64,000 nt of DNA from Variovorax paradoxus. Lineage in GTDB: Bacteria; Pseudomonadota; Gammaproteobacteria; Burkholderiales; Burkholderiaceae_C. Location of the stretch: NCBI RefSeq assembly GCF_009498455.1, contig NZ_CP045644.1:4529001-4593000 (forward strand), in the 5' to 3' direction. The stretch's first letter is position 1. Each line of letters opens with the position of its first letter. The notes under the pieces are model-generated. The model saw only the letters and a list, made by a program, of their open reading frames with translations. It was not told the DNA's origin and searched no databases. Positions 21,735 to 41,608 of this stretch are shown one piece after another. Both the position numbers and the translations under genes were made by a program.

Positions 21735-21768
21735 AAACTTCATCAACACAAGCCTGAAGGAGAAGTGA

Positions 21769-22503: not shown

Positions 22504-22535
22504 TCTGCTCGCCATCCAAGAAAAGAGAATCCCCA

Positions 22536-23864: not shown

Positions 23865-23888
23865 GCCGCATTGACCACCAAGGAAACC

Positions 23889-24395
23889 ATGAACATGCAG
23901 ACCACCGCCCACGAATTGCGCCTCACTCGGAGCGAAGCCGAGGATCTTCTCTATCGCCAGGCTGAATACATCGACACACGCGATTTCGCGTCGTGGATCG
24001 ATCTCTTCACGACCGATGCGACCTACTGGATCCCGGCACGGCCGGAGGACACCGATCCAAAGACCCAACTGTCATTTCTGTACGACGACGTGCCCGGCAT
24101 GACGGCGCGCTGCGAACGCCTGCTGGATGCCGGTACCGGGGGGCAACAGCCGGGAACGCGCTGCAATCACGTCATCAGCAATGTGCGTGTCCTCCCGGCG
24201 GACGCCAGCGGCGTCGTGGTCGTCAGGTCGCGCTTTCAGGTGACGCAGTTCCGGCGCGATGCCGCGAGGTCGTACGTGGGCTCGTACACGCACCATCTCG
24301 TCTCGACGGACGAGGGCATCAGGATCCGCTCGCAACGGGTGGATCTGATCGATTGCGATGGCATTCACGATGCGATCTTGCAGGTCTACCTGTAG
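23889..24395 (+). CDS. Rieske ring-hydroxylating oxygenase, beta subunit
   Basis: A 168-residue protein of the ring-hydroxylating dioxygenase beta-subunit/SnoaL fold. RSEAEDLLYRQAEYIDTRDF, DATYWIPARPEDTD and RCNHVISNVRVLP are typical of the family. It forms the structural half of an alpha3beta3 oxygenase with the upstream gene product. The chosen ATG has AAGGAAACC before it; a TTG start at 23871 would add six residues. Because alpha and beta are adjacent and both look intact, the oxygenase should be assembled, provided an electron-transfer chain is supplied from elsewhere. Confidence 0.9.
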   Translation: MNMQTTAHELRLTRSEAEDLLYRQAEYIDTRDFASWIDLFTTDATYWIPARPEDTDPKTQLSFLYDDVPGMTARCERLLDAGTGGQQPGTRCNHVISNVRVLPADASGVVVVRSRFQVTQFRRDAARSYVGSYTHHLVSTDEGIRIRSQRVDLIDCDGIHDAILQVYL

Positions 24396-24437
24396 CGGTT
24401 GATGGGCCGGAGTGCAGCACATGATCGGAGTTCAGCC

Positions 24438-25517
24438 ATGACCCCTTGTCCACACGGCGTGGCCAACCCGCGCCGCGGCGGCATGAAGCACGGGTGCGCT
24501 CTCGCCCTCCTGATCGCGTGCGCGACGGCGTCGGGCGCGGAGAAGGTGGGGGAGGCGCTGGAGCGGCCGGCACTGACGGTTCGTGTGCCCGAGCGAACCG
24601 TGCTGCTGGGCGCGGCGCAGGCGGGGCAGCGTTGGCTGGCTGTGGGCGAGCGCGGTGTCATCGTGCGGTCGGATGACGCGGGCCGCAGCTGGGTGCAGGC
24701 TGCAACGCCCGTCAGCGTCACGCTCACCGCCGTGCGCTTTTCCGACGCGCGGAACGGCATCGCAGTGGGCCACGCGGGCACCGTGCTCGTCACACAGGAT
24801 GGAGGCACCCGTTGGGAGCGCCGTCTCGATGGTCGGCGCATTCCTGAACTGATGCTGGCCGATGCCCGCGCGCGCGGCGATGCGGCGGCGCAGAAGGCCG
24901 CCGAGCAGATGCGCAAAGACGGGCCTGACAAGCCGCTGCTCGATGTGCTGGCGGTCGATCCGTTGCACGCGCTGGCCGTCGGCGCCTACGGCATGGCGCT
25001 TGCCACCGAAGACGGTGGCAAGCGATGGGTGTCGTGGGGCGACCGGCTGGACAACCCCGACGCCCTGCACCTGTACGCCGTTCGCCAGCGCGGCAGCCGC
25101 ATTGTCATCGCAGGCGAACAGGGACTTGTGCTCAAGTCCGACGATGGCGGCCAGACCTTCCAGCGCCTGAGCACGCCGTACAAGGGGAGCTTTTTCACAC
25201 TCGAGCTTCCCAACGACCAGGAGATCGTGCTCGCCGGGATGCGCGGCAACGTCTGGCGATCGACCGATGGTGGGAGTGCCTGGCAGCCGTTGCCAGCGCC
25301 CATGCCGGTCTCCATCGTTGCCAGCCAGTTGACCGGTGACGGCACGCTGCTGCTGGCCAACCAAGCCGGCTTCGTCATGGCGCGTCGCGAAGGCGGTGCG
25401 TTCGTGCCAGTGAACCGCGTGGCGCTGCCGCCACTCAACGGGCTGCTCGCGACCGCCGACGGCGGGATGCTGGCCCTATCCATCCAGGGCGTAATGACCG
25501 TCGATACCAAGCCATGA
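24438..25517 (+). CDS. YCF48-like/BNR-repeat exported protein
   Basis: A 359-residue beta-propeller-like protein with repeated SDDAGRSW, TQDGGTRW, TEDGGKRW, SDDGGQTF and STDGGSAW motifs. These Asp-box/BNR repeats are typical of YCF48-related proteins. A hydrophobic segment starting at MKHGCALALLIACATASG looks like a signal sequence. The ATG at 24438 has a GGAG ribosome site and gives an extended basic N-region; ATG 24483 is an alternative. In bacterial DUF1302/DUF1329 clusters such a protein regularly precedes the RND transporter. Here its stop overlaps the transporter start (ATGA), so the two are probably a functional pair in the periplasm. Confidence 0.85.
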   Translation: MTPCPHGVANPRRGGMKHGCALALLIACATASGAEKVGEALERPALTVRVPERTVLLGAAQAGQRWLAVGERGVIVRSDDAGRSWVQAATPVSVTLTAVRFSDARNGIAVGHAGTVLVTQDGGTRWERRLDGRRIPELMLADARARGDAAAQKAAEQMRKDGPDKPLLDVLAVDPLHALAVGAYGMALATEDGGKRWVSWGDRLDNPDALHLYAVRQRGSRIVIAGEQGLVLKSDDGGQTFQRLSTPYKGSFFTLELPNDQEIVLAGMRGNVWRSTDGGSAWQPLPAPMPVSIVASQLTGDGTLLLANQAGFVMARREGGAFVPVNRVALPPLNGLLATADGGMLALSIQGVMTVDTKP

Positions 25518-27886
25518 CACCTCTCGATTTCGATCGTTCCGGTTCGCTCTTCGAGCGGGCACTGTTCAACCACCGGCTGCTTGTCGTCCTGCTGTGTGCG
25601 CTGGTCACCGCGCTGCTGGGCTGGCAGGCCACGCGGCTGCAGCTCAATGCCAGCTTCGAGAAGACGATTCCAGCCCATCACCCCTACATCCAGAACTTCC
25701 TGCGGCACCAGGAGGATCTGAGTGGGCTGGGCAATGCGGTGCGCATCGCCGTCGCCAACCCGAAGGGCGATATCTACGACGCGACGTACCTGGAGGCGCT
25801 GCGCCGCATGAGCGACGAAGTCTTCCTGATCCGCGGGGTGGCGCGCGTGCAGATGAAGTCGCTGTGGACGCCATCCACGCGCTGGGCCGGCGTCACCGAA
25901 GACGGCCTCGAAGGCGGGGCGGTCATCCCCGAGGGCTACGACGGTTCGCCTCAAAGCCTGGAGCAACTGCGCGCCAACGTGGCTCGCTCGGGCGAGATCG
26001 GACAACTTGTCGCGCTCGACGGCAAATCCAGCGTGATCTATGTGCCTCTGCTGGCCAAGGATCCACAAGGCCGTCCCCTCGACTACGGTGTCCTGGCCGG
26101 GCGCTTGGAAGCCCTGCGCGTCAAGTACGAGCGCGAGGGCCTGGGGATTCACATCACCGGCTTCAGCAAGGTCGTGGGTGATCTCATCGACGGCGTGCGC
26201 GAGGTGCTGGTGTTCTTCGCGGTCGCGGTGGCCATCGCAGCAGTCGCCGTGTTCTGGTTCACGCGCTGCATCCGCTCCACCCTGCTGGTGGTCACCGCTT
26301 CCCTGGTGGCGGTCGTCTGGCAGCTCGGGCTGCTTCCCGCGATGGGCTTTGCGCTGGACCCCTACTCGATCCTCGTGCCGTTCCTGGTGTTCGCCATCGG
26401 CATGAGCCATGGCGCGCAGAAGATGAACGGCATCATGCAGGACATCGGCCGCGGTTGCCCCAAGCTGGTGGCTGCGCGTTTCACGTTCCGCCGGTTGTTC
26501 CTGGCCGGCCTGACGGCGCTGCTGGCTGACGCGGTAGGCTTTGCGGTGCTCCTGGTGATCGACGTCCAGGCCATCCGCGAGCTGGCGATTGCCGCGTCCA
26601 TCGGCGTGGGCGTGCTGATCGTCACCAACCTGATCCTGTTGCCGATCCTGTTGAGCTATACCGGGGTGAGCCCGGCCGCCGCCCGGCGCAGCCTTCGCTC
26701 CGAAGCAGCCGAGCAGAAGCTGCCCTTGTGGCGCTGGCTGGACAGATTCACGCAGCGGCGTTGGGCTGTCGGTGCCGTTATCGCCGGCATGCTGCTGGCA
26801 TCCGCAGGTGTTGTGGTCTCGCAGCACCTGGCTATCGGCGACCTCGACCCGGGCGCGCCAGAGCTGCGCGCGGACAGCCGCTACAACCGCGATGTGGCCT
26901 TCATCAACGGTGCCTATGGCGCCTCCAGCGATGTGCTTGCGGTGATGGTCAAGACACCCGATGGTCAATGCTCGCAGTACGACACGCTCAACAAGGTCGA
27001 CTCGCTGGAGTGGCAGTTGCGCCAGCTCGATGGCGTGGAGTCCACCAGCACGTTGGCGCTGCTGAACCGCCGGGTTCTTGCCGGGCTCAACGAAGGCAAC
27101 CCCAAGTGGTACGAGTTCCTGCCCAATCAGGACATGCTCAACACTGTGACGGCGCGCGCGCCCCGCGGGTTGTACAACGAGGCGTGCTCGATGCTCACCC
27201 TCTACGTATCCCTGCGCGACCACAGGGCCGACACGCTGACCCGAGTGGTCGACCATATCGAAGCCTTCGCGAAGGTGAACAACACGGCGGACACGAAGTT
27301 CCTGCTTGCCGCTGGCTCGGCCGGGATCGAGGCGGCGACGAACATCGTCGTCAAGGACGCTTGGCGCACGATGCTGTTGCTGGTCTACGGCGCGGTGGCG
27401 GTGCTGAGCCTGGTCACCTTCCGGTCGTGGCGTGCAGTGCTGGTGGCGGTTCTGCCGTTGATGCTGACTTCGGTTCTGGCCGAGGCGCTGATGGTCGCGC
27501 TCGGGATGGGCGTGAAGGTCGCGACGCTGCCGGTGATCGCGCTCGGCGTGGGCATCGGGGTGGACTACGCGCTGTACATCCTGTCGGTCACGCTGGCGCA
27601 GTTGCGCGAAGGCAAGAGCCTCTCGGAGAGCTACTACCGCGCATTGTTGTTCACCGGCAAGGTCGTGCTGCTGACGGGCGTGACACTGGCCGTCGGCGTC
27701 ATCACCTGGGTCGCCAGCCCCATCAAGTTCCAGGCCGACATGGGCCTGCTGTTGGCCTTCATGTTCCTGTGGAACATGCTCGGTGCGATGGTGCTGATCC
27801 CTGCATTGAGTCATTTGCTGCTGAAGCCGCGAACCTCACGCGAAGGCTCTGCCGTTGTGCTTGGCGAGCTTCGAGCGAGCTCCTGA
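25514..27886 (+). CDS. RND/MMPL-family transporter
   Basis: A 790-residue inner-membrane protein with the RND layout: TM1 near residues 20-42, a large periplasmic loop, a block of helices from about 235 to 380 (EVLVFFAVAVAIAAVAVFWF, SILVPFLVFAIGMSHG), a second loop, and a second helix block from about 615. The second block contains GVGIGVDYALYILSV. The two-fold repeat and FAIGMSHG/GIGVDYA motifs fit the MMPL/HAE-type exporter family. In DUF1302-DUF1329-YCF48 clusters it is believed to move hydrophobic compounds, probably inward for catabolism, but direction is not proven. It is the last gene of the plus-strand operon. Confidence 0.9.
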   Translation: MTPLDFDRSGSLFERALFNHRLLVVLLCALVTALLGWQATRLQLNASFEKTIPAHHPYIQNFLRHQEDLSGLGNAVRIAVANPKGDIYDATYLEALRRMSDEVFLIRGVARVQMKSLWTPSTRWAGVTEDGLEGGAVIPEGYDGSPQSLEQLRANVARSGEIGQLVALDGKSSVIYVPLLAKDPQGRPLDYGVLAGRLEALRVKYEREGLGIHITGFSKVVGDLIDGVREVLVFFAVAVAIAAVAVFWFTRCIRSTLLVVTASLVAVVWQLGLLPAMGFALDPYSILVPFLVFAIGMSHGAQKMNGIMQDIGRGCPKLVAARFTFRRLFLAGLTALLADAVGFAVLLVIDVQAIRELAIAASIGVGVLIVTNLILLPILLSYTGVSPAAARRSLRSEAAEQKLPLWRWLDRFTQRRWAVGAVIAGMLLASAGVVVSQHLAIGDLDPGAPELRADSRYNRDVAFINGAYGASSDVLAVMVKTPDGQCSQYDTLNKVDSLEWQLRQLDGVESTSTLALLNRRVLAGLNEGNPKWYEFLPNQDMLNTVTARAPRGLYNEACSMLTLYVSLRDHRADTLTRVVDHIEAFAKVNNTADTKFLLAAGSAGIEAATNIVVKDAWRTMLLLVYGAVAVLSLVTFRSWRAVLVAVLPLMLTSVLAEALMVALGMGVKVATLPVIALGVGIGVDYALYILSVTLAQLREGKSLSESYYRALLFTGKVVLLTGVTLAVGVITWVASPIKFQADMGLLLAFMFLWNMLGAMVLIPALSHLLLKPRTSREGSAVVLGELRASS

Positions 27887-28591: not shown

Positions 28592-29071
28592 TTACGCGCG
28601 GACTGCTCTGACGGCCAGCGAAGAGGTCGCATTCGCAATCAGTCTGGAGCGCCCTGCGTCATAAAGCTGCGCCTGCGCGAAGGCAACCTGCCCCCCGATC
28701 CTGTCGACCTTTGCCGCAGCAATGAAATGACCTTCTGGGCCGGCGCTTTGCATATTGACGGTCAAGCTGATGGTTGCGCATGTGTAGCCGGGCTTGAGCT
28801 GTGCCAGGACCGCCATCGCCATGGCCAGATCCAGCATGGTAGCCAATGTGCCTCCGCCCACGACGCCGTTGCCCTGCGTCGCGCTCCGAGGTGCGGTGAA
28901 CCTGATCACCAGTTCGTTCTTGCCGCTTTCCACCAGCAGGGCCGACAGGCTGGCCAATGCGGGATTCACCTCCAGTGGCAGGTGCCGGCGTCCAGAGGCC
29001 ACCGCGTCCGCAATGAATGCGCGCGTGGGGTTATCCTCTTGCAGCATTGCGGAATTCTCGTCCGGCTTCAC
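28592..29071 (-). CDS. PaaI-type hotdog-fold thioesterase
   Basis: A 159-residue hotdog protein. The conserved stretch VVGGGTLATMLDLAMAMAVL corresponds to the GGxxxxxxDxA active-site helix of PaaI-like acyl-CoA thioesterases, with D at the catalytic position. The later strand ATISLTVNMQSAGPEGHFIA is also typical. It would hydrolyse an acyl- or aryl-CoA. Its ATG overlaps the stop of the BKACE gene (ATGA), so the two proteins are probably made together. BKACE enzymes release a CoA thioester, which this enzyme could hydrolyse; that is inference. Confidence 0.87.
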   Translation of the reverse strand: MKPDENSAMLQEDNPTRAFIADAVASGRRHLPLEVNPALASLSALLVESGKNELVIRFTAPRSATQGNGVVGGGTLATMLDLAMAMAVLAQLKPGYTCATISLTVNMQSAGPEGHFIAAAKVDRIGGQVAFAQAQLYDAGRSRLIANATSSLAVRAVRA

Positions 29072-29958
29072 GATCTGGCCAGCAAGGTGGTGCGCGCGTG
29101 GTCGGGCGTGGCGACCTCATACCCGAGGTCCTCGATGATCCTGGCTGCCTTGGCAACGAGCTCCGCGTTGTCGCGCGCGAGCTTGCCGGGCGAGACATAC
29201 AGGTTGTCCTCCAGGCCCACCCGCACGTGTCCTCCCAGGATCGCGGCAATGGCGACCATCGGGAACTGGTCCGCGCCCACACCGAAGGCGCTCCAGCATG
29301 CATTCGCCGGCAGCAGTCGCTGCATCTCGGCCAGCACCGTGGGCGTGGCCGGTGCGCCCCAGGGCACGGACATGCACAGCTGGAAATACGCGCTCTTGGG
29401 AATCGCGCCGGTGGCGATGAGGTGACCCGCCAGACGGGCATGCCCAAAGTCGAAGACCTCGAGTTCCATGGTGACGCCGCTCGCGTGGATCTCCGCGGCC
29501 ATCTCGCGCAGGTGGTTTGCCGGATTGACGAACACCGCGTCGCCGAAGCTCATCGTCGCGACGTCCAGGCTGCAGATGTCCGGCTTGAGCCTGACCACGT
29601 GCGCGACCCGCTCCTGCGGCGTCATGAGTTCGGCGTCCGGGATGGATTCGACACGGAAGGGCGCATCGGTCGGCACCGTCAGCATCGTGCCCGGACCGGT
29701 CGTGAGATTGATCAGCACGTCGCAGCGCGAGTCGCGGATACGTTGTACCACCTCCTCGTAGTAGGCGAACTTCGTCGAAGACCTGCCGGTCTCGGGATCG
29801 CGCACATGGATGTGAACGACGCAAGCGCCTGCACGCGCGGCGCCGATGGCTTGGTCCGCGATCTCGCGGGGCGAGACGGGGACGGCGGGGTTCTTCGCTC
29901 GGGTGTCTCCAGCGCCAGTCAAGGCGCAGGAAATGATGACGGGAGGGCGCTTGCTCAT
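29068..29958 (-). CDS. Beta-keto acid cleavage enzyme (BKACE, DUF849 family)
   Basis: A 296-residue zinc enzyme of the BKACE/Kce family, which condenses a beta-keto acid with acetyl-CoA and splits it into acetoacetate and a new acyl-CoA. The zinc ligands fit: H49 and H51 in VVHIHVRDP and E250 in VGLEDN, matching His46, His48 and Glu230 of Kce. The TIM-barrel block LINLTTGPG is present. It is the first gene of a minus-strand operon with a thioesterase and MarR gene. Its promoter region carries a perfect 19-base palindrome assigned here to the TetR protein at 32889. The beta-keto acid substrate is unknown. Confidence 0.92.
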   Translation of the reverse strand: MSKRPPVIISCALTGAGDTRAKNPAVPVSPREIADQAIGAARAGACVVHIHVRDPETGRSSTKFAYYEEVVQRIRDSRCDVLINLTTGPGTMLTVPTDAPFRVESIPDAELMTPQERVAHVVRLKPDICSLDVATMSFGDAVFVNPANHLREMAAEIHASGVTMELEVFDFGHARLAGHLIATGAIPKSAYFQLCMSVPWGAPATPTVLAEMQRLLPANACWSAFGVGADQFPMVAIAAILGGHVRVGLEDNLYVSPGKLARDNAELVAKAARIIEDLGYEVATPDHARTTLLARS

Positions 29959-30030
29959 GGGATAGGGCCAGGGCTGGCAATGAAATGGCTGGGACCGGCG
30001 ATGCGAGGGCTTTACGCCGCCGTGCTATTT

Positions 30031-30049
30031 ACGATACGAGTCGTATCGT
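30031..30049. promoter_or_regulatory. Perfect 19-bp palindrome, putative TetR operator 1 (BKACE promoter)
   Basis: ACGATACGAGTCGTATCGT is a perfect inverted repeat with nine-base arms around a single central base. It lies 72 bases upstream of the BKACE start. Read in that gene's direction, the second half contains TATCGT followed by AAATAG, which could serve as a -10 box. Three related sites stand before the other operons around the tetR gene. Confidence 0.75.
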
Positions 30050-30145
30050 CCAAAATATAGGTGTGGTTTGCGGTCGCGTCAATGGAAATCCTTCGACAAC
30101 CGACACCCCTTCGCCCTAGGGAAAACACCAAAAGCCGATCTTAAA

Positions 30146-30164
30146 ACGAGACGTACAGTATCGA
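30146..30164. promoter_or_regulatory. Degenerate copy of the TetR operator (site 2, FAH promoter)
   Basis: ACGAGACGTACAGTATCGA matches 13 of 19 positions of the perfect palindrome at 30031. It ends 25 bases before the GTG start of the first FAH gene, and the tetR gene is the last gene of that operon, so this would also be the autoregulatory site. The second half, GTATCGA followed by AATTAT, overlaps a possible -10 box. Confidence 0.5.
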
Positions 30165-30189
30165 AATTATCTTGGATTGGAGTGTCGCC

Positions 30190-31188
30190 GTGAAACTTGG
30201 AAGATTTGTCGTACAGGGCCTCGATGGTCCCGTTCAGCGCATCTGCATGGTGCTGCCCGAGCAGTCCCGTGTCATCGATCTGCGCGCGGCGGAGGTGTTG
30301 CGGCAGGAGTCGCGCGGTGCCAGCCGCGAGGCCGCGCTGCGCTACGCATCCGCGGTGTTTCCCGAAAGCATGTCGGCGGCCATTGCGCTCGGCGAGCAGT
30401 TCCTCGAGACGGCGCATGAGGCGTCGGCACGCCACGGGGACGATGCCTCGAAGCCCTTCGAAGGGCTGACCTGGGCGGCGGCCTGCGACCCGTCGGTCGT
30501 GCGCGATGGGCTTACCTTCGTGAAGCACATCCGCCAGTTTCATGAGCGAATGAAGCTCACGCCCGCGCCGGCGCTGCTGCAGGTGCCCGGATACTTCAAG
30601 GGTTCTCCCTGGACGGTCATCGGGCACGAAGCGCAGGTGCCATGGCCGGCGCGGGCCGAGAAGATGGACTACGAGCTGGAGATCGGCTGGGTCATGGGTC
30701 GGACCGCGCACAACATCACGCCAGACACTGCGCGTTCGCATCTTTTCGGGGTGACGATCTTCAACGACTTCTCGGCACGCGACCTGCAGGCCAATGAATT
30801 TGCGATCGGCATGGGCCCCACCAAGAGCAAGGACTTTGCCTACGGCATCGGACCGTGGATCACGACGATCGACGAGTTTCCGCACCTGGACCGCATCCGC
30901 ATGGCCGTTCGGGTGAACGGCGAGACCTGGGGCGAGGGCGATACCTCGGAGATGCTGTGGAGCGTGGAAGAGCTGATCGCCTATGTGTCGCTGGGCGATC
31001 ATGTGCAGCCCGGCGACGTGATCGGCTCGGGCACGATGGGCAACGGTTCCGCGCTGGAGCTTGGCCGCAGCCTCAGCCCGGGCGACGTGGTGGAGTTGGA
31101 GGTGTCCGGTGTCGGCGTGCTGCGCAACCGCATGGGCCCGCGCGAGCAGGACACCTGGTGGCCGACCCCGCGCCAGCCTTTCATGTGA
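30190..31188 (+). CDS. Fumarylacetoacetate hydrolase (FAH) family protein 1
   Basis: A 332-residue FAH-fold protein. The metal-binding acidic motif MDYELEIGWVMG (E162 and E164) is followed by FSARDLQANEF with the expected Asp, and by the GDVIGSGTMGNGSALELG loop near the C-terminus. Members cleave or decarboxylate acyl-pyruvates and related ring-opened products. The GTG at 30190 follows TTGGAGTGTCGCC and begins MKLGRFV, a natural start. It heads the operon with a second FAH gene, a cupin and the TetR regulator. Together with the extradiol dioxygenase of the same apparent regulon it would act after ring opening. Confidence 0.9.
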   Translation: MKLGRFVVQGLDGPVQRICMVLPEQSRVIDLRAAEVLRQESRGASREAALRYASAVFPESMSAAIALGEQFLETAHEASARHGDDASKPFEGLTWAAACDPSVVRDGLTFVKHIRQFHERMKLTPAPALLQVPGYFKGSPWTVIGHEAQVPWPARAEKMDYELEIGWVMGRTAHNITPDTARSHLFGVTIFNDFSARDLQANEFAIGMGPTKSKDFAYGIGPWITTIDEFPHLDRIRMAVRVNGETWGEGDTSEMLWSVEELIAYVSLGDHVQPGDVIGSGTMGNGSALELGRSLSPGDVVELEVSGVGVLRNRMGPREQDTWWPTPRQPFM

Positions 31189-31198
31189 GAGGGCCGCC

Positions 31199-32206
31199 GT
31201 GAAGTTTTCTCTCGGAACTTTCTCCCGCGATGGAGGCGAACGGTTCGCCGCCATGTGCATCGGCGATCGCGTGCTGCCGCTTCATGCGCTGCATGCGCAG
31301 GCGCTGCGCTGCGGAGCCCAATGGCCCGAGGCGGCTTCGGTGCTGGACCTGCTGCAGCACTGGGACCGCAACCTGGCGGTGCTGCGCGCGCTGCGGGAGA
31401 CCGTGCCCGCCCGGCATGACGCCGAGTTGCCGATGGAACGCCTGAGAGTGCATCCACCTGTCGATCTGCCGCGGCAGCTGCTCTGCACCGGGGCGAACTA
31501 CCGCAAGCACGTCGTCGACCTCACGCTCGACATGGGCGTCGGGCCCGAAGGCCTGGAGGGCCCCGCGCTGCGCAAGTGGGCCGAAGACATGATGGACGAA
31601 CGGGCCGCGCACGGCGAGCCGTACGCATTTCCAAAGCTGCCTTCGGCCGTCACGGGTGCCTTCGATCCCATCGTGCTTCCGGCGACGACCCAGAAGCCGG
31701 ACTGGGAGCTGGAGCTCGCCGTCATCATCGGCCGGCGCGCCCGGAACGTGCGCCGCGAGGATGCGCTCCACTACGTGGCCGGGTATGCGATCGTCAACGA
31801 CGTTTCCGCGCGCGACCTGATCGCTCGCACCGACTACAAGATGCTCGGCACCGACTGGCTGAGATCCAAGTCGCCCCCGAGCTTCATGCCGTTCGGCCCC
31901 GTGCTGGTGCCGGCTTGCTTCGTGCCGGATCCGCAGAATTTGCGAATCACCCTGAAGCTGAACGGCCAGACCATGCAAGACGAGTCGAGCGCGGACATGC
32001 TGTTCGACGTGGCGCGGCAGATCGAGTACATCTCCGCGCACGTCGAGCTCTGGCCGGGCGACCTCATCGCGACAGGATCTCCCGCAGGCAACGGCATGCA
32101 CTACAACCGCTTTCTGCGTGAAGGCGACGTGCTCGACTCGGAGATCGAAGGCCTGGGCATGCAGCGCAATGTGTGCACGCGATCACAGGCGACAAAGGCG
32201 TCCTGA
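31199..32206 (+). CDS. Fumarylacetoacetate hydrolase (FAH) family protein 2
   Basis: A 335-residue FAH-family protein distinct from its upstream neighbour. CTGANYRKH, PDWELELAVIIGRRARNV with the paired Glu metal ligands, VNDVSARDLIAR, and the closing GDLIATGSPAGNGMHYN are standard blocks. The GTG start at 31199 is 11 bases after the first FAH stop and has GAGAGGG in front. Two different FAH proteins in a row suggest two steps on a ring-cleavage product, for example isomerase or decarboxylase and hydrolase; which does which cannot be decided by eye. Confidence 0.9.
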   Translation: MKFSLGTFSRDGGERFAAMCIGDRVLPLHALHAQALRCGAQWPEAASVLDLLQHWDRNLAVLRALRETVPARHDAELPMERLRVHPPVDLPRQLLCTGANYRKHVVDLTLDMGVGPEGLEGPALRKWAEDMMDERAAHGEPYAFPKLPSAVTGAFDPIVLPATTQKPDWELELAVIIGRRARNVRREDALHYVAGYAIVNDVSARDLIARTDYKMLGTDWLRSKSPPSFMPFGPVLVPACFVPDPQNLRITLKLNGQTMQDESSADMLFDVARQIEYISAHVELWPGDLIATGSPAGNGMHYNRFLREGDVLDSEIEGLGMQRNVCTRSQATKAS

Positions 32207-32263
32207 TCGTGCCATTCGACATGCGAAACGACTCATACACCGCCACCAGAAAGGACCCTCGGC

Positions 32264-32830
32264 GTGAATACTGAAGCAACGATCGAAAAAGAACACGCCA
32301 ACACCACGGCGAGCGCGCGCCCGGTGCGCCGCATCGTCACCGGAGAGAACGCGCAGGGCAAATCCATCTTCGTGTCGGACGGACCGGCGCCCAACCACAC
32401 CACGGATCCGGGGACGCCGCTTGCGCAGGTGGTCTGGGCAACGGGCGAGGCCGCAGCTCCCGGTCCCGATCCGGCGCCCGCGGGCCGGGCGTTCGGTTTT
32501 CATTCCAGGCGTGGCTCCCTCCTGCGAGTGGTCGACTTCCCGCCCGATGAGGCTTACGAGCCGGCAGAGCTGGCGCGGTTCCTCGACGAGCATGGCGTGC
32601 GGGACACCGGCGACGCGCGTCACTTCTGGTTCCACAAGACGCAGTCCCTGGACTATGCGATCGTCCTGGAAGGCGAGATTCACGCACTCATGGACGAGGG
32701 CGAGACGCTCATGCGTGCCGGCGACATCCTGATCCAGAGGGCGACAAACCACAGCTGGGCGAACCGTTCAGGCAAGTCTTGCCGCATGGCCTTCGTGCTG
32801 CTGGACCTGGAGCCGGGCGGCAAGGTGTGA
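32264..32830 (+). CDS. Cupin domain protein
   Basis: A 188-residue protein with a single C-terminal cupin. WFHKTQSLDYAIVLEGEIHAL and MDEGETLMRAGDILIQRATN give the double beta-helix signature, and HSWANRSGKSCRMAFVLLD closes it. The first cupin motif lacks the usual HxH pair, having HKTQSLDYAIVLEGE, so metal binding is uncertain. Residues 1-25 are disordered in composition. The GTG start at 32264 has an AAAGGA ribosome site. It lies between the FAH genes and tetR and is probably co-transcribed. It may be an isomerase, lyase or binding protein for a ring-cleavage product. Confidence 0.82.
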   Translation: MNTEATIEKEHANTTASARPVRRIVTGENAQGKSIFVSDGPAPNHTTDPGTPLAQVVWATGEAAAPGPDPAPAGRAFGFHSRRGSLLRVVDFPPDEAYEPAELARFLDEHGVRDTGDARHFWFHKTQSLDYAIVLEGEIHALMDEGETLMRAGDILIQRATNHSWANRSGKSCRMAFVLLDLEPGGKV

Positions 32831-32888
32831 TCGTGCGGGATGGCGCGTCCGAGATAATGGGCTCGTCGCAGTAGACATCGGGAATTTC

Positions 32889-33620
32889 TTGCCTACCAAA
32901 ACTCCTTCCCAAGCCGTCGCAGCCAAGGCTCGCGGCCGTGCCTCGGCCCCCTCCGTCGCCAAGCTCGGCGCCGCGCCGGGCCCGGCGGCATCGCGCGCTC
33001 GCCCGCCCGGGCGCGCGCGCAGCGATGCGTCGCGCATGGCCGTCCTCGATGCCACGCTGAAACTCCTGGAGACCACGCCGGTGCAGCAGATCTCGATCGA
33101 GTCGATCGCGCGCGAGGCGGGTGTGGGCAAGGCCACCATCTACCGCTGGTGGAGTTCGAAGGCCGCGGTGGTGATCGAGGCCTTCCTGCACACCCACCTG
33201 AGCCACACGCCGATGCCCAAGGATGTCAGCCCGCGCGAGGCGCTGACCCGCCATATCCACCTGCTGGTGGAAGAGTACAGCGGGTGGTCGGGGCGCATCG
33301 TCTCGCAGATCATGGCCGAGGGCCAGAGCGACCCCGACGTGCTGCGCGAATTCCGCGAGCGCTTCTGGTACGGGCGGCGGGCGGTCGTGCGCGAAGTGGT
33401 CGAAGAAGCACGCCGAAGGGGCGAGTTCCGCAACGACCTCGAAACGGAGCTGCAGATGGACATCCTGTACGCGCCGATCTATTTTCGGCTGCTCATGCGG
33501 CACCTGCCGCTGGACAAGAAGTTCGCGGACGAACACTGCGCCGCGATCATGCAGATGCTGGCACCGAGCGAAAAGAAAGAGGCCGGTGCTGCACCGGCCA
33601 GGCGCCGCAAGGTCGCCTGA
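32889..33620 (+). CDS. TetR-family transcriptional regulator
   Basis: A 243-residue TetR protein. A basic, Ala/Pro-rich N-terminal tail of about 45 residues precedes the helix-turn-helix at about 50-97 (ISIESIAREAGVGKATIYRW). The rest is the helical ligand domain. The TTG start at 32889 has GGGAATTTC upstream; an ATG at 33035 would cut into the first helix, so TTG is preferred. It is the last gene of the FAH operon. A 19-base palindrome occurs once before each of the four operons around this gene, so it is the best candidate for a local repressor released by a pathway metabolite. Confidence 0.92.
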   Translation: MPTKTPSQAVAAKARGRASAPSVAKLGAAPGPAASRARPPGRARSDASRMAVLDATLKLLETTPVQQISIESIAREAGVGKATIYRWWSSKAAVVIEAFLHTHLSHTPMPKDVSPREALTRHIHLLVEEYSGWSGRIVSQIMAEGQSDPDVLREFRERFWYGRRAVVREVVEEARRRGEFRNDLETELQMDILYAPIYFRLLMRHLPLDKKFADEHCAAIMQMLAPSEKKEAGAAPARRRKVA

Positions 33621-33642
33621 GCCGTTCCCACGGAAGGCCGGG

Positions 33643-34497
33643 TCAGTCCTGGGGCAGGGCCGAGGTATTCACCAGCCTGTCGTACGTGGTGTCGGCGCCC
33701 GGCAGGCCGCAGCGGCGGCGCTGCTGGATGAGCAGTTCGATGCCGTCGCGGTCCGGACGCAGCGAGGCCGGCGTGCCACGCAGCATGGCGTCCACCACTG
33801 GAGCGGAGAAGCCCGCCAGCGCCAGGATCTGACGTGCGCCTTCCGGATCGTCACTCATCCGCCAGCGCGCTTTGTCGAGGCCTTGCAACCAGGCGGACAG
33901 CGTGGGCCGCAGCCGCTCCAGCGCGCCCGCGCTCACCACGAGGCCTTGCCCTGGAAAGGTCGGATAGCGCTCCTGTACGGTCGCCACTCGGCTGAGTCCC
34001 GCGTCGAGTGCCATGGCGTCGAAAGGCGGTCCCAGCAGGGTCGCGTCGCCGTGCCCGGAGACGATGGCGTCGTGCCGCTCCTTCACGCCGCCCACCGGCT
34101 CCAGCGCATAGTCGTCCGGTTCGATGCCCGCATCGGCCAGCATGGCGCGCAAGGCCACGATGAAGCCGTTGCGGGGCGCATCGACCAGGATGGTGGCACC
34201 GCGCAGGTCTTCGAGCCTGTCGCGGCCTCTCTGCCCGATCACGGTCAGCGGGGTCGTGCGCTCGAGCTGTGCGACAACACAAAAATCCTGCGGCCCATCG
34301 CGCAGGTTCCAGTCCATCACGTTGTCGATGGCCGTGAGCACGGCATCCGCACGGCCGGATGCCAGCGCCTCGAACTGGGCGTCCGATGAAGGATTGCGCT
34401 CGGCCTGGAGCGACACGCCCGGCGTGAGGCCCCACGCGTCGGCAGCCAGCGCCACGGGGGAAGGAACGAACCAGAGAAGCCGCAGTGTGGAAGACAT
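33643..34497 (-). CDS. Periplasmic-binding-protein-like protein without signal peptide
   Basis: A 284-residue protein with the fold pattern of NitT/TauT/THI5-type substrate-binding proteins: ALASGRADAVLTAIDNVMDW, LEDLRGATILVDAPRNGFIV, ALRAMLADAGIEPDDYALEPVGG and SGHGDATLLGPPFDAM. Unlike exported members, it begins MSSTLRLLWFVPSPVALAAD with no convincing signal peptide. A GTG at 34515 adds only six residues and does not create one. No ABC permease or ATPase is nearby. It follows a Bug receptor gene by about 20 bases on the minus strand. It may be a cytoplasmic binding or sensing protein, or an enzyme of this fold. Confidence 0.75.
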   Translation of the reverse strand: MSSTLRLLWFVPSPVALAADAWGLTPGVSLQAERNPSSDAQFEALASGRADAVLTAIDNVMDWNLRDGPQDFCVVAQLERTTPLTVIGQRGRDRLEDLRGATILVDAPRNGFIVALRAMLADAGIEPDDYALEPVGGVKERHDAIVSGHGDATLLGPPFDAMALDAGLSRVATVQERYPTFPGQGLVVSAGALERLRPTLSAWLQGLDKARWRMSDDPEGARQILALAGFSAPVVDAMLRGTPASLRPDRDGIELLIQQRRRCGLPGADTTYDRLVNTSALPQD

Positions 34498-34518
34498 GGG
34501 ATCGCGCGCCCGCACTCG

Positions 34519-35499
34519 TCAGGTCAATTCGAGCTTGATGCCCGAACGCTTCACCACCGGAACCCATTTCGCCCGCTCGGCGCGGATGTAGGCCGCGAAT
34601 TCCGCCGGGGTACTCCCGACGGGCTCGCCGCCGTATTCGTGGTACCTCTGGATGACCTCCGGCTTGCCTGCCAGCGTGGCGCAGGCAGCCGACAGCTTGT
34701 CCAGCACGGCCTTGGGCGTGCCTGCGGGCGCAAGAAGGCCGAACCATGTCGATGCGTCGTAGTCCGCGATGCCCAGTTCCTCGAAGGTCGGCACGTTCGG
34801 AAGCAGTGCGTGGCGGCCCTTGCCCGTGACGGCCAGCGCCTTCAGCTTTCCCGCGCGGATGTTGCTCATGGACGCCGCCAGCGCATCGAACATCACCTGC
34901 GTCTCGCCTGCCAGCAGCGCCGCATAGGGACTGGTCGTGTTGTACGGGACGAACTGGTAGCTGGTCCCGGTGATCGCACCGAACCACACGCCCAGCAGGT
35001 GCTGGAAGGTGCCGATACCGAGCGTTCCCGCGGGAATGGTTCCCGGCCTGGCCTTGGCCAGCGCCACGAGTTCGGATGCCGTCGAGGCGGGCAACCCCGG
35101 GTGGGCGACCAGCACGCTGCGCAAGGCGGTGAGCTGGCTGATGGGTTCGAAGTCGGTGGGCTTGTATGGAAGCTTCGCGTACAGCTCGGACATGTAGCAC
35201 AGCGAACTCGGGATACCGATGTGCAAGGTGTAGCCGTCGGGAGGCGCCTTGGCGGCCAAGGCGGTACCGATTGTTGTCGCGCCTCCGGGACGGTTGTCGA
35301 TGAACACCGACTGCCGCAGCAGAGTGGTGAGCCCTGCGGCCCAGAAGCGCGAATCGGCATCGAGGCCCGACCCGGGCGGGTTCGCCACGATGATGCGCAC
35401 CGGCTTGTCGGGATAGTCCCCCGCCAGCGACCTGCCGGCGAGCGTTGCCATCAGCATTCCGGCGCCGGCGCCCAGCGCCTGCCGTCTCGAGATCGTCAT
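34519..35499 (-). CDS. Bug/TctC-family periplasmic solute-binding receptor (TetR regulon)
   Basis: A 326-residue Bug protein whose N-terminus, MTISRRQALGAGAGMLMATLAGRSLAG, has a twin-arginine-like signal (SRRQAL) and is followed by DYPDKPVRIIVANPPGSGLD. Later blocks include FIDNRPGGATTIGT, QFVPYNTTSPYAALLAGE and VPTFEELG. The ATG at 35499 has a GGAGACACAACCC ribosome site; an ATG at 35517 is possible. It is divergent from the extradiol dioxygenase operon, and a degenerate copy of the TetR operator lies 67 bases upstream. It would bind the small acid that this cluster degrades. Confidence 0.9.
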   Translation of the reverse strand: MTISRRQALGAGAGMLMATLAGRSLAGDYPDKPVRIIVANPPGSGLDADSRFWAAGLTTLLRQSVFIDNRPGGATTIGTALAAKAPPDGYTLHIGIPSSLCYMSELYAKLPYKPTDFEPISQLTALRSVLVAHPGLPASTASELVALAKARPGTIPAGTLGIGTFQHLLGVWFGAITGTSYQFVPYNTTSPYAALLAGETQVMFDALAASMSNIRAGKLKALAVTGKGRHALLPNVPTFEELGIADYDASTWFGLLAPAGTPKAVLDKLSAACATLAGKPEVIQRYHEYGGEPVGSTPAEFAAYIRAERAKWVPVVKRSGIKLELT

Positions 35500-35566
35500 T
35501 GGGTTGTGTCTCCGCATCTTGGGCACCGGAAAAAAAAGCGGCGCCTGGAAATTGTCCACCCATATT

Positions 35567-35585
35567 ACAAGACGAACCGTATTGC
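35567..35585. promoter_or_regulatory. Degenerate copy of the TetR operator (site 3, Bug promoter)
   Basis: ACAAGACGAACCGTATTGC on the plus strand matches 13 of 19 positions of the palindrome at 30031. Read toward the Bug gene it is followed directly by AATATG, and overlaps a possible TAATAT -10 box. It is placed like the other three sites and is weaker. Confidence 0.45.
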
Positions 35586-35602
35586 AAATATCGGGAAACC
35601 CC

Positions 35603-35628
35603 GAAGATGCCGCGCCAGTGGCATCTTC
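35603..35628. repeat. Perfect 9-bp stem hairpin in the Bug/extradiol divergent promoter
   Basis: GAAGATGCC and GGCATCTTC form a perfect nine-base stem with an eight-base loop, between the two TetR-like sites of this divergent region. It has no T-run, so it is not a classic terminator. It could be a second operator or an RNA hairpin in one of the leaders. Confidence 0.45.
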
Positions 35629-35655
35629 CGCCCAAGGGTTTGTCCTAAATTAATA

Positions 35656-35674
35656 ACGATACGGTCCGTATAGT
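35656..35674. promoter_or_regulatory. Near-perfect TetR operator (site 4, extradiol dioxygenase promoter)
   Basis: ACGATACGGTCCGTATAGT is a palindrome with one mismatch and the same arms as the site at 30031 (ACGATACG...CGTATCGT). It lies 140 bases before the dioxygenase start. Its second half contains TATAGT, a good -10 match, followed by ATTTAG, just as site 1 contains TATCGT followed by AAATAG. Confidence 0.7.
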
Positions 35675-35814
35675 ATTTAGTCAGTTCCAGCACAACAAGC
35701 AGAGACAAGCAAGGAAGCTGCGGCGAAGTCGATTCGCCCGTCGCTCCACGAACATCGGTGCTTGGCTTTCGAGTGCTGGCCATGGAGCCTTCTCACTCTC
35801 GAAAGGAAAAGAGA

Positions 35815-36762
35815 ATGAACATCCTGGGGCCTGATTCCCTGGTCTTCGGCGTCGATGACCTCGATGCCTGCATTCAGTTCTTCACCGACTACGGCCTCGC
35901 GCCCGTTGGTGTCGATGAATCCGGCGGGCGCTTCGAGGCGGTCGACGGTACCTCCATCGTCATCGCGCACAGAAGCGATCCCTCGCTGCCTCCCGCCATG
36001 GACACGGGAACGATGCTGCGAAAGACGATCTACGGTGTCGCGGACCGCGAGACGCTGGAAGCTATCGCCGACGAGCTGGGTCGCGACCGCGAGGTGAAGC
36101 GTCTGCCCGACGGCTCCATAGAGGCGTCGGACGACATGGGATTTGTCCTGGGGTTCCAGGTCTCGGTGAGGCGAAAGATCGACGTTGCAGCCGAGACCGT
36201 GAACTCGCCGGGTGCCAAGCCGGGGAGGGCTCCCAACGTCGTCGGGGCGAATGCCCATGCAGAGTTCCGGCCGCTGACGCTTTCGCACGTCGTGTACTTC
36301 GTGCCCGATCAGGCCAAGGCCTCCAGGTTCTACGTGGACCGGCTGGGCTTCCGCTGCACCGACCGCTTCACGGAAGCAGGCACCTTCCTCAGGCCCGCGG
36401 GAACCCTGGATCACCACACGCTGTTCCTGATCCAGACTCCGGCCTTCATGAAGGGGGTGGAGCATTTCACCTTCCATCTCTCGGGTCCTACGGCGGTGCT
36501 TCAGCGCGGCACCGCCTTTGCCGCCCAGGGCTACCAGACGTATTGGGGTCCTGGCCGGCACAAGTTCGGCTCCAACTGGTTCTGGTACTTCAACAGCCCT
36601 GTGGGCTGCCATGTGGAGTACGACGCGGACATGGACCTGCACGACGACAGCTGGGTCGCGCGCGAAGCACCCATGCAGGTCGATGAATCGCAGATCTTCC
36701 TGTTCCAGCACCGTGACAAGTGGGCGCCGGGTGGCCCACCGCCGGGCAGCGAGGCGCATTGA
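35815..36762 (+). CDS. Type I extradiol dioxygenase (VOC fold)
   Basis: A 315-residue two-domain vicinal-oxygen-chelate protein with the metal triad of type I extradiol dioxygenases: H158 (LSHVVYF), H217 (VEHFTFH) and E268 (HVEYD), spaced as in 2,3-dihydroxybiphenyl-type enzymes. It would open a catechol-type ring by meta cleavage. The ATG at 35815 follows GAAAGGAAAAGAGA. It heads a plus-strand operon with a Rieske ferredoxin, an MFS transporter, an FAD hydroxylase and a LysR gene, and its promoter holds a near-perfect TetR operator. The exact catechol is unknown. Confidence 0.9.
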   Translation: MNILGPDSLVFGVDDLDACIQFFTDYGLAPVGVDESGGRFEAVDGTSIVIAHRSDPSLPPAMDTGTMLRKTIYGVADRETLEAIADELGRDREVKRLPDGSIEASDDMGFVLGFQVSVRRKIDVAAETVNSPGAKPGRAPNVVGANAHAEFRPLTLSHVVYFVPDQAKASRFYVDRLGFRCTDRFTEAGTFLRPAGTLDHHTLFLIQTPAFMKGVEHFTFHLSGPTAVLQRGTAFAAQGYQTYWGPGRHKFGSNWFWYFNSPVGCHVEYDADMDLHDDSWVAREAPMQVDESQIFLFQHRDKWAPGGPPPGSEAH

Positions 36763-36771: not shown

Positions 36772-37119
36772 ATGCGCGCGTACCTGTGCAGGCTCGACGA
36801 GCTCCCTGACCGCGCGGCACGCGGCTTCGCTCCCGAAGGCATGTCGCGAAGAGCGATGTTCGTCGTCCGGCACGGCGGCCGCGTGAGGGGATGGCTCGAC
36901 ACCTGCCCGCACGTCTACGGCGCGCCGCTGGCCTGGCGCAAGGATGCCTACCTCAGTGCCGACAGGAATTCGATCGTTTGCTATGGGCATGGCGCGGTGT
37001 TCGACATCGACACCGGTGTCTGCACCAAGGGGCCATGCGTGGGGCAGGCACTCACGCCCGTGACGCTGGAATGCGATGAGGGGGCGTTGTGGATCACATC
37101 ACCGCATGCCGCCAAGTGA
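36772..37119 (+). CDS. Rieske [2Fe-2S] ferredoxin-like protein
   Basis: A 115-residue Rieske protein with cluster ligands C45 and H47 (CPH) and C70 and H73 (CYGHGA). The motif agrees with Rieske ferredoxins of ring-hydroxylating oxygenases or with small stand-alone Rieske proteins. It starts ten bases after the extradiol dioxygenase stop. No Rieske oxygenase is encoded in this operon; the only one in the window (22536-24395) lacks its own ferredoxin. It may serve that oxygenase, or reduce the iron of the extradiol dioxygenase as XylT-type ferredoxins do, although XylT is a plant-type and not a Rieske ferredoxin. Confidence 0.85.
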   Translation: MRAYLCRLDELPDRAARGFAPEGMSRRAMFVVRHGGRVRGWLDTCPHVYGAPLAWRKDAYLSADRNSIVCYGHGAVFDIDTGVCTKGPCVGQALTPVTLECDEGALWITSPHAAK

Positions 37120-37141
37120 CAACTTTTCCGAGGGCTTCAAT

Positions 37142-38320
37142 ATGAATTCGACAACTGGCTTCCGGGCACGGATCGCCCTCATGGCCGCGCATTGCGCGGG
37201 AATGATCGACATCGTTGCGCTACCCGTGTGGGTCGGAACGCTCATCGCACGGTTCGGGTTCGACCCGCAGCAGGCGGGCGCGCTGGCCACCTTGTTCCTG
37301 GCGGGGGCCGTCACGGCGAGCGTGGGCCTGGCGCCGCGCTTCAACCGCCTGCGCGGCCGCCACTGGATCGTTCCCGCAGGCTACGCCATTTCGGCTGCTG
37401 CGTTCCTGGCCTGCATGCGCACCAGCCAGTTCGAAACACTCGCGGTCCTGCATCTTGCGGCGGGCTTTGCCACTGGCGTCGGATTGAGCATCACGCATGG
37501 CACCGTCGCCCTCACGAACAACCCGCATCGGCTGTTCGGCTTCATGCAGGTCGCGGTAGGCGTGCTTGGCATTGCCTACATGGCAGCCGCCCCGCAGATC
37601 ATCGCGCAGGTCGGAGGTGCAGGGCTCTTCGCCATCTTCGGCGCCATCATGATCGCGGCGAGCGTCATCACGGCGCTGGCGTTCCCGAAAGTACACCCGG
37701 CGCAGGCGGAGGCCGCGGCGCACGATGTGCGGCCGGCGCGGCTGCCGAAAGCCGCATGGTGCGCGATGGCGGGCATCAGCCTGATGAACGTGACGCAGGC
37801 CATGGTGTTCTCCTTCATGGAGCGGATGGGTGCCGATCGTGGGTTCACACCGCCCGATCTGCATGTCGTGCTGATCGCGGTGGGCATCGTCAACCTGGTT
37901 CCTGGCGCGGTCGCCGCGTTCCTGCAGCACCGCCTCGATGCACGCAATGTCGTGCTTGCTGGCGCCACCGCACAAGCCATCCTCGCGGTGGTGCTGGTCT
38001 CAAGTACCGCATTCCCCGCCTATGCGGCGAGCGGCGCATTCTTTGTCTCCGCGGTGATCTTCACGCACATATTCACCTTCGGGGCTCTGGCCAAGCTGGA
38101 TCCGTCGGGGCGCGCCGTGTCCGCGACGCCCGCGATGCTGATGATCGGTTCGGCCATCGGCCCTGTCCTGGGCGGCACCCTGGTGAAGTTCTTTGGTTAT
38201 GAGGCCATCGGCTGGGCTGCGGTCGCGATCGACGCCGTGGCCTTCTGCTTCTATCTGCAATTGCGAAACCACACCGCGCCACCCGATGCGCCGGTGATAA
38301 AGATTCATCCACAAACATGA
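37142..38320 (+). CDS. MFS-type transporter (copy 2)
   Basis: A 392-residue membrane protein with about 12 helices, paralogous to the transporter at 18229-19413. The two share AHCAGM(I/L)D(I/M)VALPVWVGTL, FDPQQAG, ATLFL-GAV, the RFNRL loop, ATPAMLMIG-AIGPVLGGTLVK and other blocks. The ATG at 37142 is preceded by GAGGGCTTCAAT. It sits between the Rieske ferredoxin and the FAD hydroxylase genes, so it probably imports the aromatic acid used by this operon. Substrate and direction are inferred. Confidence 0.85.
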   Translation: MNSTTGFRARIALMAAHCAGMIDIVALPVWVGTLIARFGFDPQQAGALATLFLAGAVTASVGLAPRFNRLRGRHWIVPAGYAISAAAFLACMRTSQFETLAVLHLAAGFATGVGLSITHGTVALTNNPHRLFGFMQVAVGVLGIAYMAAAPQIIAQVGGAGLFAIFGAIMIAASVITALAFPKVHPAQAEAAAHDVRPARLPKAAWCAMAGISLMNVTQAMVFSFMERMGADRGFTPPDLHVVLIAVGIVNLVPGAVAAFLQHRLDARNVVLAGATAQAILAVVLVSSTAFPAYAASGAFFVSAVIFTHIFTFGALAKLDPSGRAVSATPAMLMIGSAIGPVLGGTLVKFFGYEAIGWAAVAIDAVAFCFYLQLRNHTAPPDAPVIKIHPQT

Positions 38321-38342: not shown

Positions 38343-39455
38343 ATGAACAAGACCAAGCGGGTGCTCGTGGTCGGAAGTGGCATCGGCGGCGCCACCGCGG
38401 CCTATGCGCTGGCCAAGGCGGGCCTGGAGACCCATTGCATCGACATCCAGCCGGCCAGGTCCACGCTCGGCTCGGGGATCTGCCTGCTTCACAACACGAT
38501 GCGTGCACTTTCGGAGATCGGTCTAGCCGACCCTTGCCTCGACAGCGGGCTGCGCTTCGAGGTGTTCAAGCAGTTCGACGCTGCCGGCAACCTTCTCATG
38601 TCGAACCCGACGCCGCCCGGCATCGGCATCCGCCGTCCGGAGCTTGCCCGGATCCTCGAGACCTCGGCCAGCGCGGCGGGAGCGAAGATGGAGCGCGGCC
38701 TCACCGCCAAGAGCGTGAGCGACCGTGGAGACTGCGTGGAGGTGGAGTTTTCCGATGGGCGCGAGGCTGCCTACGATCTCGTGGTTGCAGCGGACGGCGC
38801 CTACTCGAAACTGCGCGAGCAATTCTTCGGTGCCGAGCATCGCGTGTGTTTTGCTGGCCAGAGCGCCTGGCGCTTCAATGCGCCGCGGCCGCCCGAGGTC
38901 GATGGCTTCTGTCTCTATCGCTCGCCCGATGGCAAGCGCACCGTCGGCGCGCTGCCGACGTCGAAGGAGACGTGCTATCTGTTCTTCCTGGAGAACAGTG
39001 CGCAGCACCTGCATTGGCCGGACGACCAGCTGGATGTCCTGGTCCGTGAGCGGCTCGCTGGCTTTTCCGCCCCGGTGATCCAGGACTCGCTGGCATTAAT
39101 CACGAGCCCGCAGCAGGTTCTGGTTCGTCCGTTCGACGTCACGCTTGTGCCGGCCCCGTGGCATCGCGGCCGGGTCGTGCTGCTGGGAGATTCGGCGCAC
39201 TCGCCGACCCCGCAGATGACCTCCGGGGGTGGCATGGCCATCGAGGACGCGGTGGTGCTCGCCCAGTGCCTGAAGGCCGAAAGCAGCATTCCGGAGGCTC
39301 TGGTGGCCTATACGAACCGCCGGTTCGAGCGCGTCTCCACGGTGTGGAATGCCTCGCTGCAGCTGTGCAAGTACGAGCAAGAGGCCGTGCCGAATCCGCA
39401 AAGATCCGCCGCGCTCTTGCTGCAGACCTACCAGTATCTCGGCCAGCCCATGTGA
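38343..39455 (+). CDS. FAD-dependent aromatic hydroxylase (salicylate/6-hydroxynicotinate hydroxylase-like)
   Basis: A 370-residue class A flavoprotein monooxygenase. It has GSGIGG at 11-16, the DG motif AADGAYSKLR at about 149-158, and GDSAHSPTPQMTSGGGMAIEDA from 282. Its short length and lack of a C-terminal extension place it with salicylate and 6-hydroxynicotinate hydroxylases. It would hydroxylate, possibly with decarboxylation, a monocyclic aromatic acid, and the product would be the catechol opened by the extradiol dioxygenase in the same operon. It has a CAGGAGACAAATCC ribosome site. Confidence 0.9.
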   Translation: MNKTKRVLVVGSGIGGATAAYALAKAGLETHCIDIQPARSTLGSGICLLHNTMRALSEIGLADPCLDSGLRFEVFKQFDAAGNLLMSNPTPPGIGIRRPELARILETSASAAGAKMERGLTAKSVSDRGDCVEVEFSDGREAAYDLVVAADGAYSKLREQFFGAEHRVCFAGQSAWRFNAPRPPEVDGFCLYRSPDGKRTVGALPTSKETCYLFFLENSAQHLHWPDDQLDVLVRERLAGFSAPVIQDSLALITSPQQVLVRPFDVTLVPAPWHRGRVVLLGDSAHSPTPQMTSGGGMAIEDAVVLAQCLKAESSIPEALVAYTNRRFERVSTVWNASLQLCKYEQEAVPNPQRSAALLLQTYQYLGQPM

Positions 39456-41565: not shown

Positions 41566-41608
41566 AGCGGCTGCCCGATAGCCGCTGCTAGAAAAACGAG
41601 ACCAGACC

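Follow-up and report, generated by a model that had tools for sequence, protein, structure and literature searches.

The question raised by this locus is which regulator, if any, reads four copies of a 19-bp palindrome that stand in two divergent promoter regions of a catabolic gene cluster in Variovorax paradoxus. The stretch of DNA analyzed, here called the window, is 64,000 nucleotides long, and it carries a tetR gene between the two regions. We consider it highly probable that the TetR_C_11-type protein encoded at 32889 has the four palindromes as its operators, from which it would repress four catabolic promoters until an inducer binds. All four sites were read directly in the sequence at the positions given in Table 1. 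The first-pass annotation had described the site at 30031 as a perfect repeat and the site at 35656 as a one-mismatch copy, and both descriptions were verified (0 and 1 mismatch).

Table 1. Predicted regulatory sites and genes of the cluster, in window coordinates
Feature	Coordinates	Strand	Remarks
4HBT (PaaI-like) thioesterase	28592..29071	-	adjoins BKACE
BKACE beta-keto acid cleavage enzyme	29068..29958	-	
Operator 1 (putative)	30031..30049	.	perfect 8-3-8 palindrome ACGATACGAGTCGTATCGT, BKACE/FAH1 divergent region
Sigma70-like promoter match TTGACG-17-TATATT	30054..30082	-	towards BKACE; best match at site 1
Operator 2 (putative)	30146..30164	.	imperfect palindrome ACGAGACGTACAGTATCGA, about 25 bp 5' of FAH1 GTG
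FAH family hydrolase 1 (FAH1)	30190..31188	+	
FAH family hydrolase 2 (FAH2)	31199..32206	+	
Cupin domain protein	32264..32830	+	
tetR, 243 aa, TetR_N + TetR_C_11	32889..33620	+	3' of FAH1-FAH2-cupin, same direction
Phosphonate-bd/NMT1-like substrate-binding-type protein (SBP2)	33643..34515	-	
TctC/Bug substrate-binding protein	34519..35499	-	
Operator 3 (putative)	35567..35585	.	imperfect palindrome ACAAGACGAACCGTATTGC, upstream of TctC/Bug
Operator 4 (putative)	35656..35674	.	one-mismatch palindrome ACGATACGGTCCGTATAGT, upstream of VOC
VOC protein, extradiol-dioxygenase-like	35815..36762	+	weak family matches
Rieske domain protein	36772..37119	+	
MFS transporter	37139..38320	+	
FAD-dependent monooxygenase-like protein	38343..39455	+	

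The rarity of the sites was examined by counting mismatches to the reference pattern ACGATACGNNNCGTATCGT over its 16 scored positions, of which the site at 35656 misses one, that at 30146 three, and that at 35567 four. The window contained four matches with up to three mismatches (30031, 30146, 35656, and 60907), and 100 shuffles gave a mean of 0.13 and at most 1. A pattern search of the 7.29-Mb genome with up to one mismatch returned only 30031 and 35656, and this strong pair is exceptional by sequence. With up to three mismatches, 18 places were found in the genome versus 14 with the reversed-pattern control, and the relaxed pattern ACRAKACGNNNCGTMTYGT with up to two mismatches gave 17 places, including all four sites, versus 13 in the control. 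Because these totals lie near those of the controls, the weak pair (30146 and 35567) is not significant by mismatch count alone. In some loci, overlapping palindromes offset by 5 bp were seen, in part because the motif overlaps itself, having ACG at both position 1 and position 6.

The protein encoded at 32889 scored 39.8 bits against TetR_N (PF00440; cut-off, 24) and 86.3 bits against TetR_C_11 (PF16859; cut-off, 32), and by both domains it is a TetR/AcrR family regulator. The best PDB matches to a profile of five orthologues were 2fq4 (E 3e-33) and 2zb9 (E 4.2e-28), the latter of which we take to be SCO0332. Genes for a MarR (27975) and a LysR (39394) regulator also lie near the sites, and either might own the operators in place of TetR; palindromes of about this size are bound by MarR proteins as well. 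Among these three local regulators, only tetR was found in all five Variovorax loci. In a search of four related loci (L041 to L044) at E 1e-8, tetR matched all four and LysR matched L041 and L042 only, whereas marR matched none, yet all four loci carry the sites; the comparison covered MarR 27975 and LysR 39394, and further LysR genes lie at 10146, 11190, and 14464.

The co-occurrence of site and regulator was followed through the genus. A search of 61 genus genomes for the strict motif with up to one mismatch gave eight places in six genomes, versus two for the reversed-pattern control. Six of the eight lie in this cluster (G000 and G031 have two apiece, and G019 and G023 have one), one in G002 is upstream of a tetR homologue, and one in G021 is inside a MOSC-domain gene. 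Thirty-seven of these genomes, the window's own included, were searched for the TetR protein. Five carry a TetR of at least 73% identity, the orthologues in four of the 36 other genomes being 73 to 87% identical. A site within one mismatch occurred in 4/5 of the genomes with such a TetR versus 2/32 of the others; the exception among the five, G030, has weaker forms of the site and none within one mismatch. The remaining 24 of the 61 genomes have no such site.

More distant TetR proteins were then considered by scoring 400 nt upstream of each homologue gene. Matches shorter than 110 aa, with less than 100 nt upstream, or with duplicate first 60 aligned residues were dropped, and 28 of the 114 that were left were excluded because they were training loci or duplicates of these, leaving 86 outside the training loci. 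Relatives of 26 to 47% identity often have the palindrome in front of tetR: 15 of the 86 scored at least 15 there, whereas 300 permuted motifs averaged 0.08 and never exceeded 6. The positives include loci of Bradyrhizobium (L167, with a perfect palindrome, and L164), Corynebacterium (L166), Fictibacillus (L105 and L136), Leuconostoc (L101), and Insolitispirillum (L100). Against the link, five gammaproteobacterial MAG homologues of 45 to 49% identity (L094 and L096 to L099) gave no score as high as 13 over the 400 nt preceding tetR, although L095, which is of the same kind, has a site scoring 27.2 there. The best scores in the whole fetched loci were 15.6 for L094 (9 kb off), 13.0 for L099, and below 8 for L096 to L098. 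The homologue of Variovorax paradoxus VAI-C (L169, 48%) likewise had none as high as 13 among its 400 upstream nucleotides, and a site scoring 21.9 stands about 8 kb from tetR in that strain (L045). The Streptomyces and Kitasatospora relatives had no palindrome in the 400 nt scored upstream of tetR.

The similar sites upstream of tetR homologues in Bradyrhizobium, Fictibacillus, and Leuconostoc, together with the patchy occurrence of marR and LysR, make it improbable that another local regulator, such as the MarR at 27975 or the LysR at 39394, uses the palindromes. The link to the local TetR, which the first-pass annotation had offered as inference, is supported by co-occurrence and by the palindromes before the distant homologues' own genes. 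The link of the sites to this TetR is well supported by comparison, and the protein presumably binds them. By family precedent, it would act as a repressor rather than an activator.

The weaker copies reported at 30146 and 35567 are present, and they rest on position, conservation, and a learned motif. A weight matrix built from 13 sites in nine clusters, all outside Variovorax (PWM A), scored 29.4 at 30031, 27.7 at 35656, 19.7 at 60907, 18.3 at 30146, and 15.0 at 35567, and the next-best score in the window was 10.6. Thus, the weaker copies ranked above the rest of the window except 60907. When the half-site columns were permuted, 3 of 1,000 motifs reached 15.0 in the two intergenic regions. 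The match at 60907 lies inside a gene, in a frame of 237 aa that encodes an ABC transporter domain, and is probably due to chance. A second matrix (PWM B), from 35 sites including those of Variovorax relatives and none from the window, gave 29.6 for 30031, 27.3 for 35656, and 21.3 and 19.3 for the weak pair. The genome-wide motif search that had been suggested for further targets was run as a pattern search, which may miss sites that a matrix would detect. Its strict and relaxed forms yielded 23 places outside the window and among them no target rivaling the four sites, with a maximum PWM B score of 16.5 versus 19.3 for the weakest operator; the context was determined for six of the 23, each of which is inside an open frame of 374 to 969 codons.

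Conservation was examined in alignments of seven FAH1-upstream regions, five of them divergent from BKACE, and four TctC/VOC regions, the window included in both. Half-site identity to the window was 0.89 in the FAH1-upstream regions versus 0.41 in the remaining aligned intergenic DNA, and 0.92 versus 0.53 in the TctC/VOC regions, and all four sites are conserved islands in related genomes. Site 2 was recognizable in 7/7 of the aligned FAH1-upstream regions. In L042/L074, which are the same genome, site 3 is GCAATACGCTGCGTATTGC, a perfect palindrome, and site 4 is TCGAGACGAGTCGTCTAGT, with both halves changed together. Such paired changes are what would be expected of contact with a two-fold symmetric protein. 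The near-control genome count could also be taken to mean that real operators are confined to the strong pair and the weak two are relics or chance matches, but the weak sites match the strong ones in conservation (0.88 for 30146 and 0.94 for 35567 versus 0.91 for 30031 and 0.90 for 35656), and with a perfect site 3 in L042/L074, that account is quite improbable. A stem could also form from a perfect inverted repeat, but it is extremely improbable that the palindromes are RNA hairpins or terminators in leaders rather than DNA operators, as a terminator scan of 29900-36000 found none at the sites, the same sequence, beyond mere pairing, recurs across genera, and what is conserved at site 2 is an imperfect palindrome.

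Absence of the palindrome from relatives that keep the gene order had been named in advance as evidence against the regulon. Gene order is kept in L041 and L042, and Variovorax sp. JS1663 (L075) has a related cluster in the same order; all four sites aligned in L041, L042/L074, and L075. These syntenic genomes are three in number, and some of their site copies exceed the mismatch limit of the pattern scans and were recovered by alignment. In the rearranged loci L043 and L044, a site is retained upstream of FAH1 and of the MFS-VOC-Rieske genes. The same-genus locus scan took in 20 fetched stretches. Further related clusters were found in a Hydrogenophaga MAG, Cupriavidus, Paraburkholderia, Burkholderia, and Pseudomonas inefficax. 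Plasmids of Bradyrhizobium and Corynebacterium also bear related gene sets that include a tetR.

Each presumed operon start in the window has one nearby site. Sites with scores of at least 13 in the 450 bp upstream were counted by gene in 26 loci. Duplicates of the same genome were left out, and one match per gene, the best, was taken (for tetR, two), provided that it covered half or more of the query and had at least 80 nt upstream. Some of the sites had been used to train the motif, and a site between divergent genes counts for both. A site was present upstream of FAH1 in 20/23 loci, VOC in 13/18, MFS in 7/12, SBP2 in 8/14, cupin in 7/14, TctC in 3/6, tetR in 10/33, and BKACE in only 4/14. 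By the same measure, none was found upstream of the FAD monooxygenase (0/16) or DHDPS (0/21) genes. Of the ten BKACE genes that lack a site, at least six (in L082, L083, L088, L089, L090, and L093) are of a remote type, with 29 to 30% identity to the window BKACE, and stand beside a cupin gene. The earlier proposal of one site for each of four operons fits the comparative data as a whole. Pfam, NCBIfam, and PDB searches of the cluster proteins gave broad families only and no pathway name, the VOC relatives carried only general names among the matches listed (120 of 2995), and we recognized no paper on this cluster or operator among open-licence full texts, although such papers may exist.

The sites were also compared with predicted promoters. 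The first-pass annotation had noted a -10-like hexamer in the same half of each strong site and argued that bound protein would block RNA polymerase, which proved partly right. A promoter scan of 6.1 kb gave three matches of the sigma70-like kind versus 0.7 in shuffles. The best match at site 1 is TTGACG-17-TATATT on the minus strand (30082-30054), and from it BKACE transcription would start within operator 1. GTCAA, the complement of the -35 core, is present in 6/7 of the aligned FAH1-upstream regions, as is TAYAGT within site 2 (6/7). The TATAGT of site 4 is not kept, being TCTAGT in L074 and TATAGC in L075. The -10 overlap argument is weaker than first stated. Sites 1 and 2 are 115 bp apart in the window and in L074 and 117 bp apart in L075. 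A fixed looping geometry of the paired sites was rejected because the spacing of sites 3 and 4 differs between the window (89 bp) and L074 (139 bp).

The mode of action that we infer, from operon structure, binding, and repression to inducer and autoregulation, would be as follows. Without inducer, a TetR dimer would occupy each site and block RNA polymerase at the four promoters, most likely by steric hindrance at each, thereby silencing the putative operons BKACE-thioesterase, FAH1-FAH2-cupin-tetR, TctC-SBP2, and VOC-Rieske-MFS-FAD monooxygenase. A substrate or intermediate of the pathway would bind the C-terminal domain of TetR and release it, and the whole cluster, including tetR, would then be induced together, with tetR autoregulated through the FAH operon. 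The locus is probably an inducible, local TetR repressor regulon of a catabolic cluster.

A broader reading can be put forward only tentatively, at somewhat less than even odds in our judgment: in Proteobacteria, Firmicutes, and Actinomycetota alike, much of the TetR_C_11 clade may share one operator code, C-N2-TAC-N5-GTA-N2-G, with a recognition helix mostly of the form xKxTIYRWW, and the cluster here may represent an undescribed, widely shared catabolic pathway with inducer-controlled operons that can be listed from their operators. The recognition helices of the 15 positive homologues end in YRWW in 9 cases, YRRW in 3, YKWW in 2, and YRTW in 1, and the shared code is weakened because 6/15 positives are without YRWW. 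YRWW also occurs in homologues without a site, such as L094, L096 to L099, and L169, and in the Streptomyces group the helix is mostly YRRW. Five proteins with SKMTIYKWW have ACTATAC-like half-sites when read by eye, and 3/5 score below 13; L068 (YRTW), also read by eye, has an ACTATAC-like half-site too. The YKWW subgroup could reflect a one-residue specificity switch, and a helix code in which R or K before WW corresponds to ACGATACG or ACTATACG could be a candidate. If the shared operator code holds across phyla, the targets of many unnamed regulators could be predicted from sequence, and target assignment for other TetR_C_11 proteins would become easier.

Local palindromic repressor sites are an ordinary kind of bacterial switch. 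The regulon described here is testable for this catabolic cluster in Variovorax, a Hydrogenophaga MAG, Cupriavidus, Paraburkholderia, Burkholderia, and Pseudomonas. Its operators mark genes that would act together and may help in finding the pathway substrate. The pairing of TetR with its promoter also offers a candidate biosensor.

The regulon is well supported and not surprising, and the kind of system is already known. MbdR of Azoarcus sp. CIB is a regulator of 3-methylbenzoate genes, and control of an aromatic cluster would be common to it and the TetR here. It is reportedly of the TetR type, with the operator ATACN10GTAT. ATAC/GTAT half-sites are common to the MbdR operator and the window sites, with a spacing of N10 in MbdR versus N5 here. 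A closer likeness is seen with EdcR of Caenibius tardaugens, a TetR_N and TetR_C_11 (PF16859) protein that represses the estradiol edc cluster, with estrone as its likely inducer (PMC8700777). Repression of two edc operons was shown there by deletion, RT-PCR, and reporter fusions, and the operator TnnCnnTACnAnTnGTAnnGnnA, a sequence-based proposal, was assigned to two promoters and, less conserved, to two more (PMC8700777). EdcR and the window TetR have the TetR_N and PF16859 architecture in common, both would be local repressors of a catabolic cluster (by prediction in the window), and both systems have a palindrome at four promoters, two of them weaker. The skeleton C-N2-TAC-N5-GTA-N2-G, compared by eye, is complete in window sites 1 and 4, whereas in sites 2 and 3 one half reads GAC instead of TAC, and site 4 is without the central AnT of the wider EdcR consensus. 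The window system appears to work like EdcR, a likeness drawn from domains and operator skeleton.

The second element TAGGGNAAACNC was located approximately 20 to 40 bp from the palindromes, with at most one mismatch, in the Variovorax and Hydrogenophaga clusters, and in addition to the window it was present at loci L041, L074, L075, L076, L077, and L078. It was not found near the palindromes of the scanned Cupriavidus and Paraburkholderia loci (L081, L083, L084, L086, L088, and L165). The exact copies genome-wide (6 versus 4 for the control) and the counts in 20 sequences (17 versus 11) showed statistically weak excesses. The element is possibly the site of a second regulator.

Features in and around the cluster
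Feature	Position	Strand	Location
Second element TAGGGNAAACNC (within 1 mismatch)	30117-30128	+	Beside palindromes
Second element TAGGGNAAACNC (within 1 mismatch)	35636-35647	-	Beside palindromes
Palindrome-like match ACGAGACGTCCCGTCTCGA	60907-60925		Within ABC-transporter gene
DUF1302, MFS, dienelactone hydrolase, Rieske oxygenase alpha, YCF48-like, MMPL genes	16480-27886		Adjoining cluster
DHDPS family, TctC, ornithine cyclodeaminase family, aldehyde dehydrogenase genes	40546-45086		After cluster

TetR homologues with the recognition helix SKMTIYKWW showed ACTATAC-like half-sites, not ACGATAC, upstream of tetR (loci L048, L050, L053, L070, and L071), a possible specificity switch. L068 has a different helix, yet its half-site is similar to the ACTATAC-like type. 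The match ACGAGACGTCCCGTCTCGA, which scores no lower than the weak operators, is likely due to chance.

The palindrome was absent from the adjoining gene set in the window. The MMPL gene, which belongs to this set here, is located within the cluster in Variovorax L043/L076. A related tetR carried by plasmids of Bradyrhizobium and Corynebacterium likewise has genes for DHDPS, cyclodeaminase, and dehydrogenase close by, and this recurrence suggests one widespread pathway.
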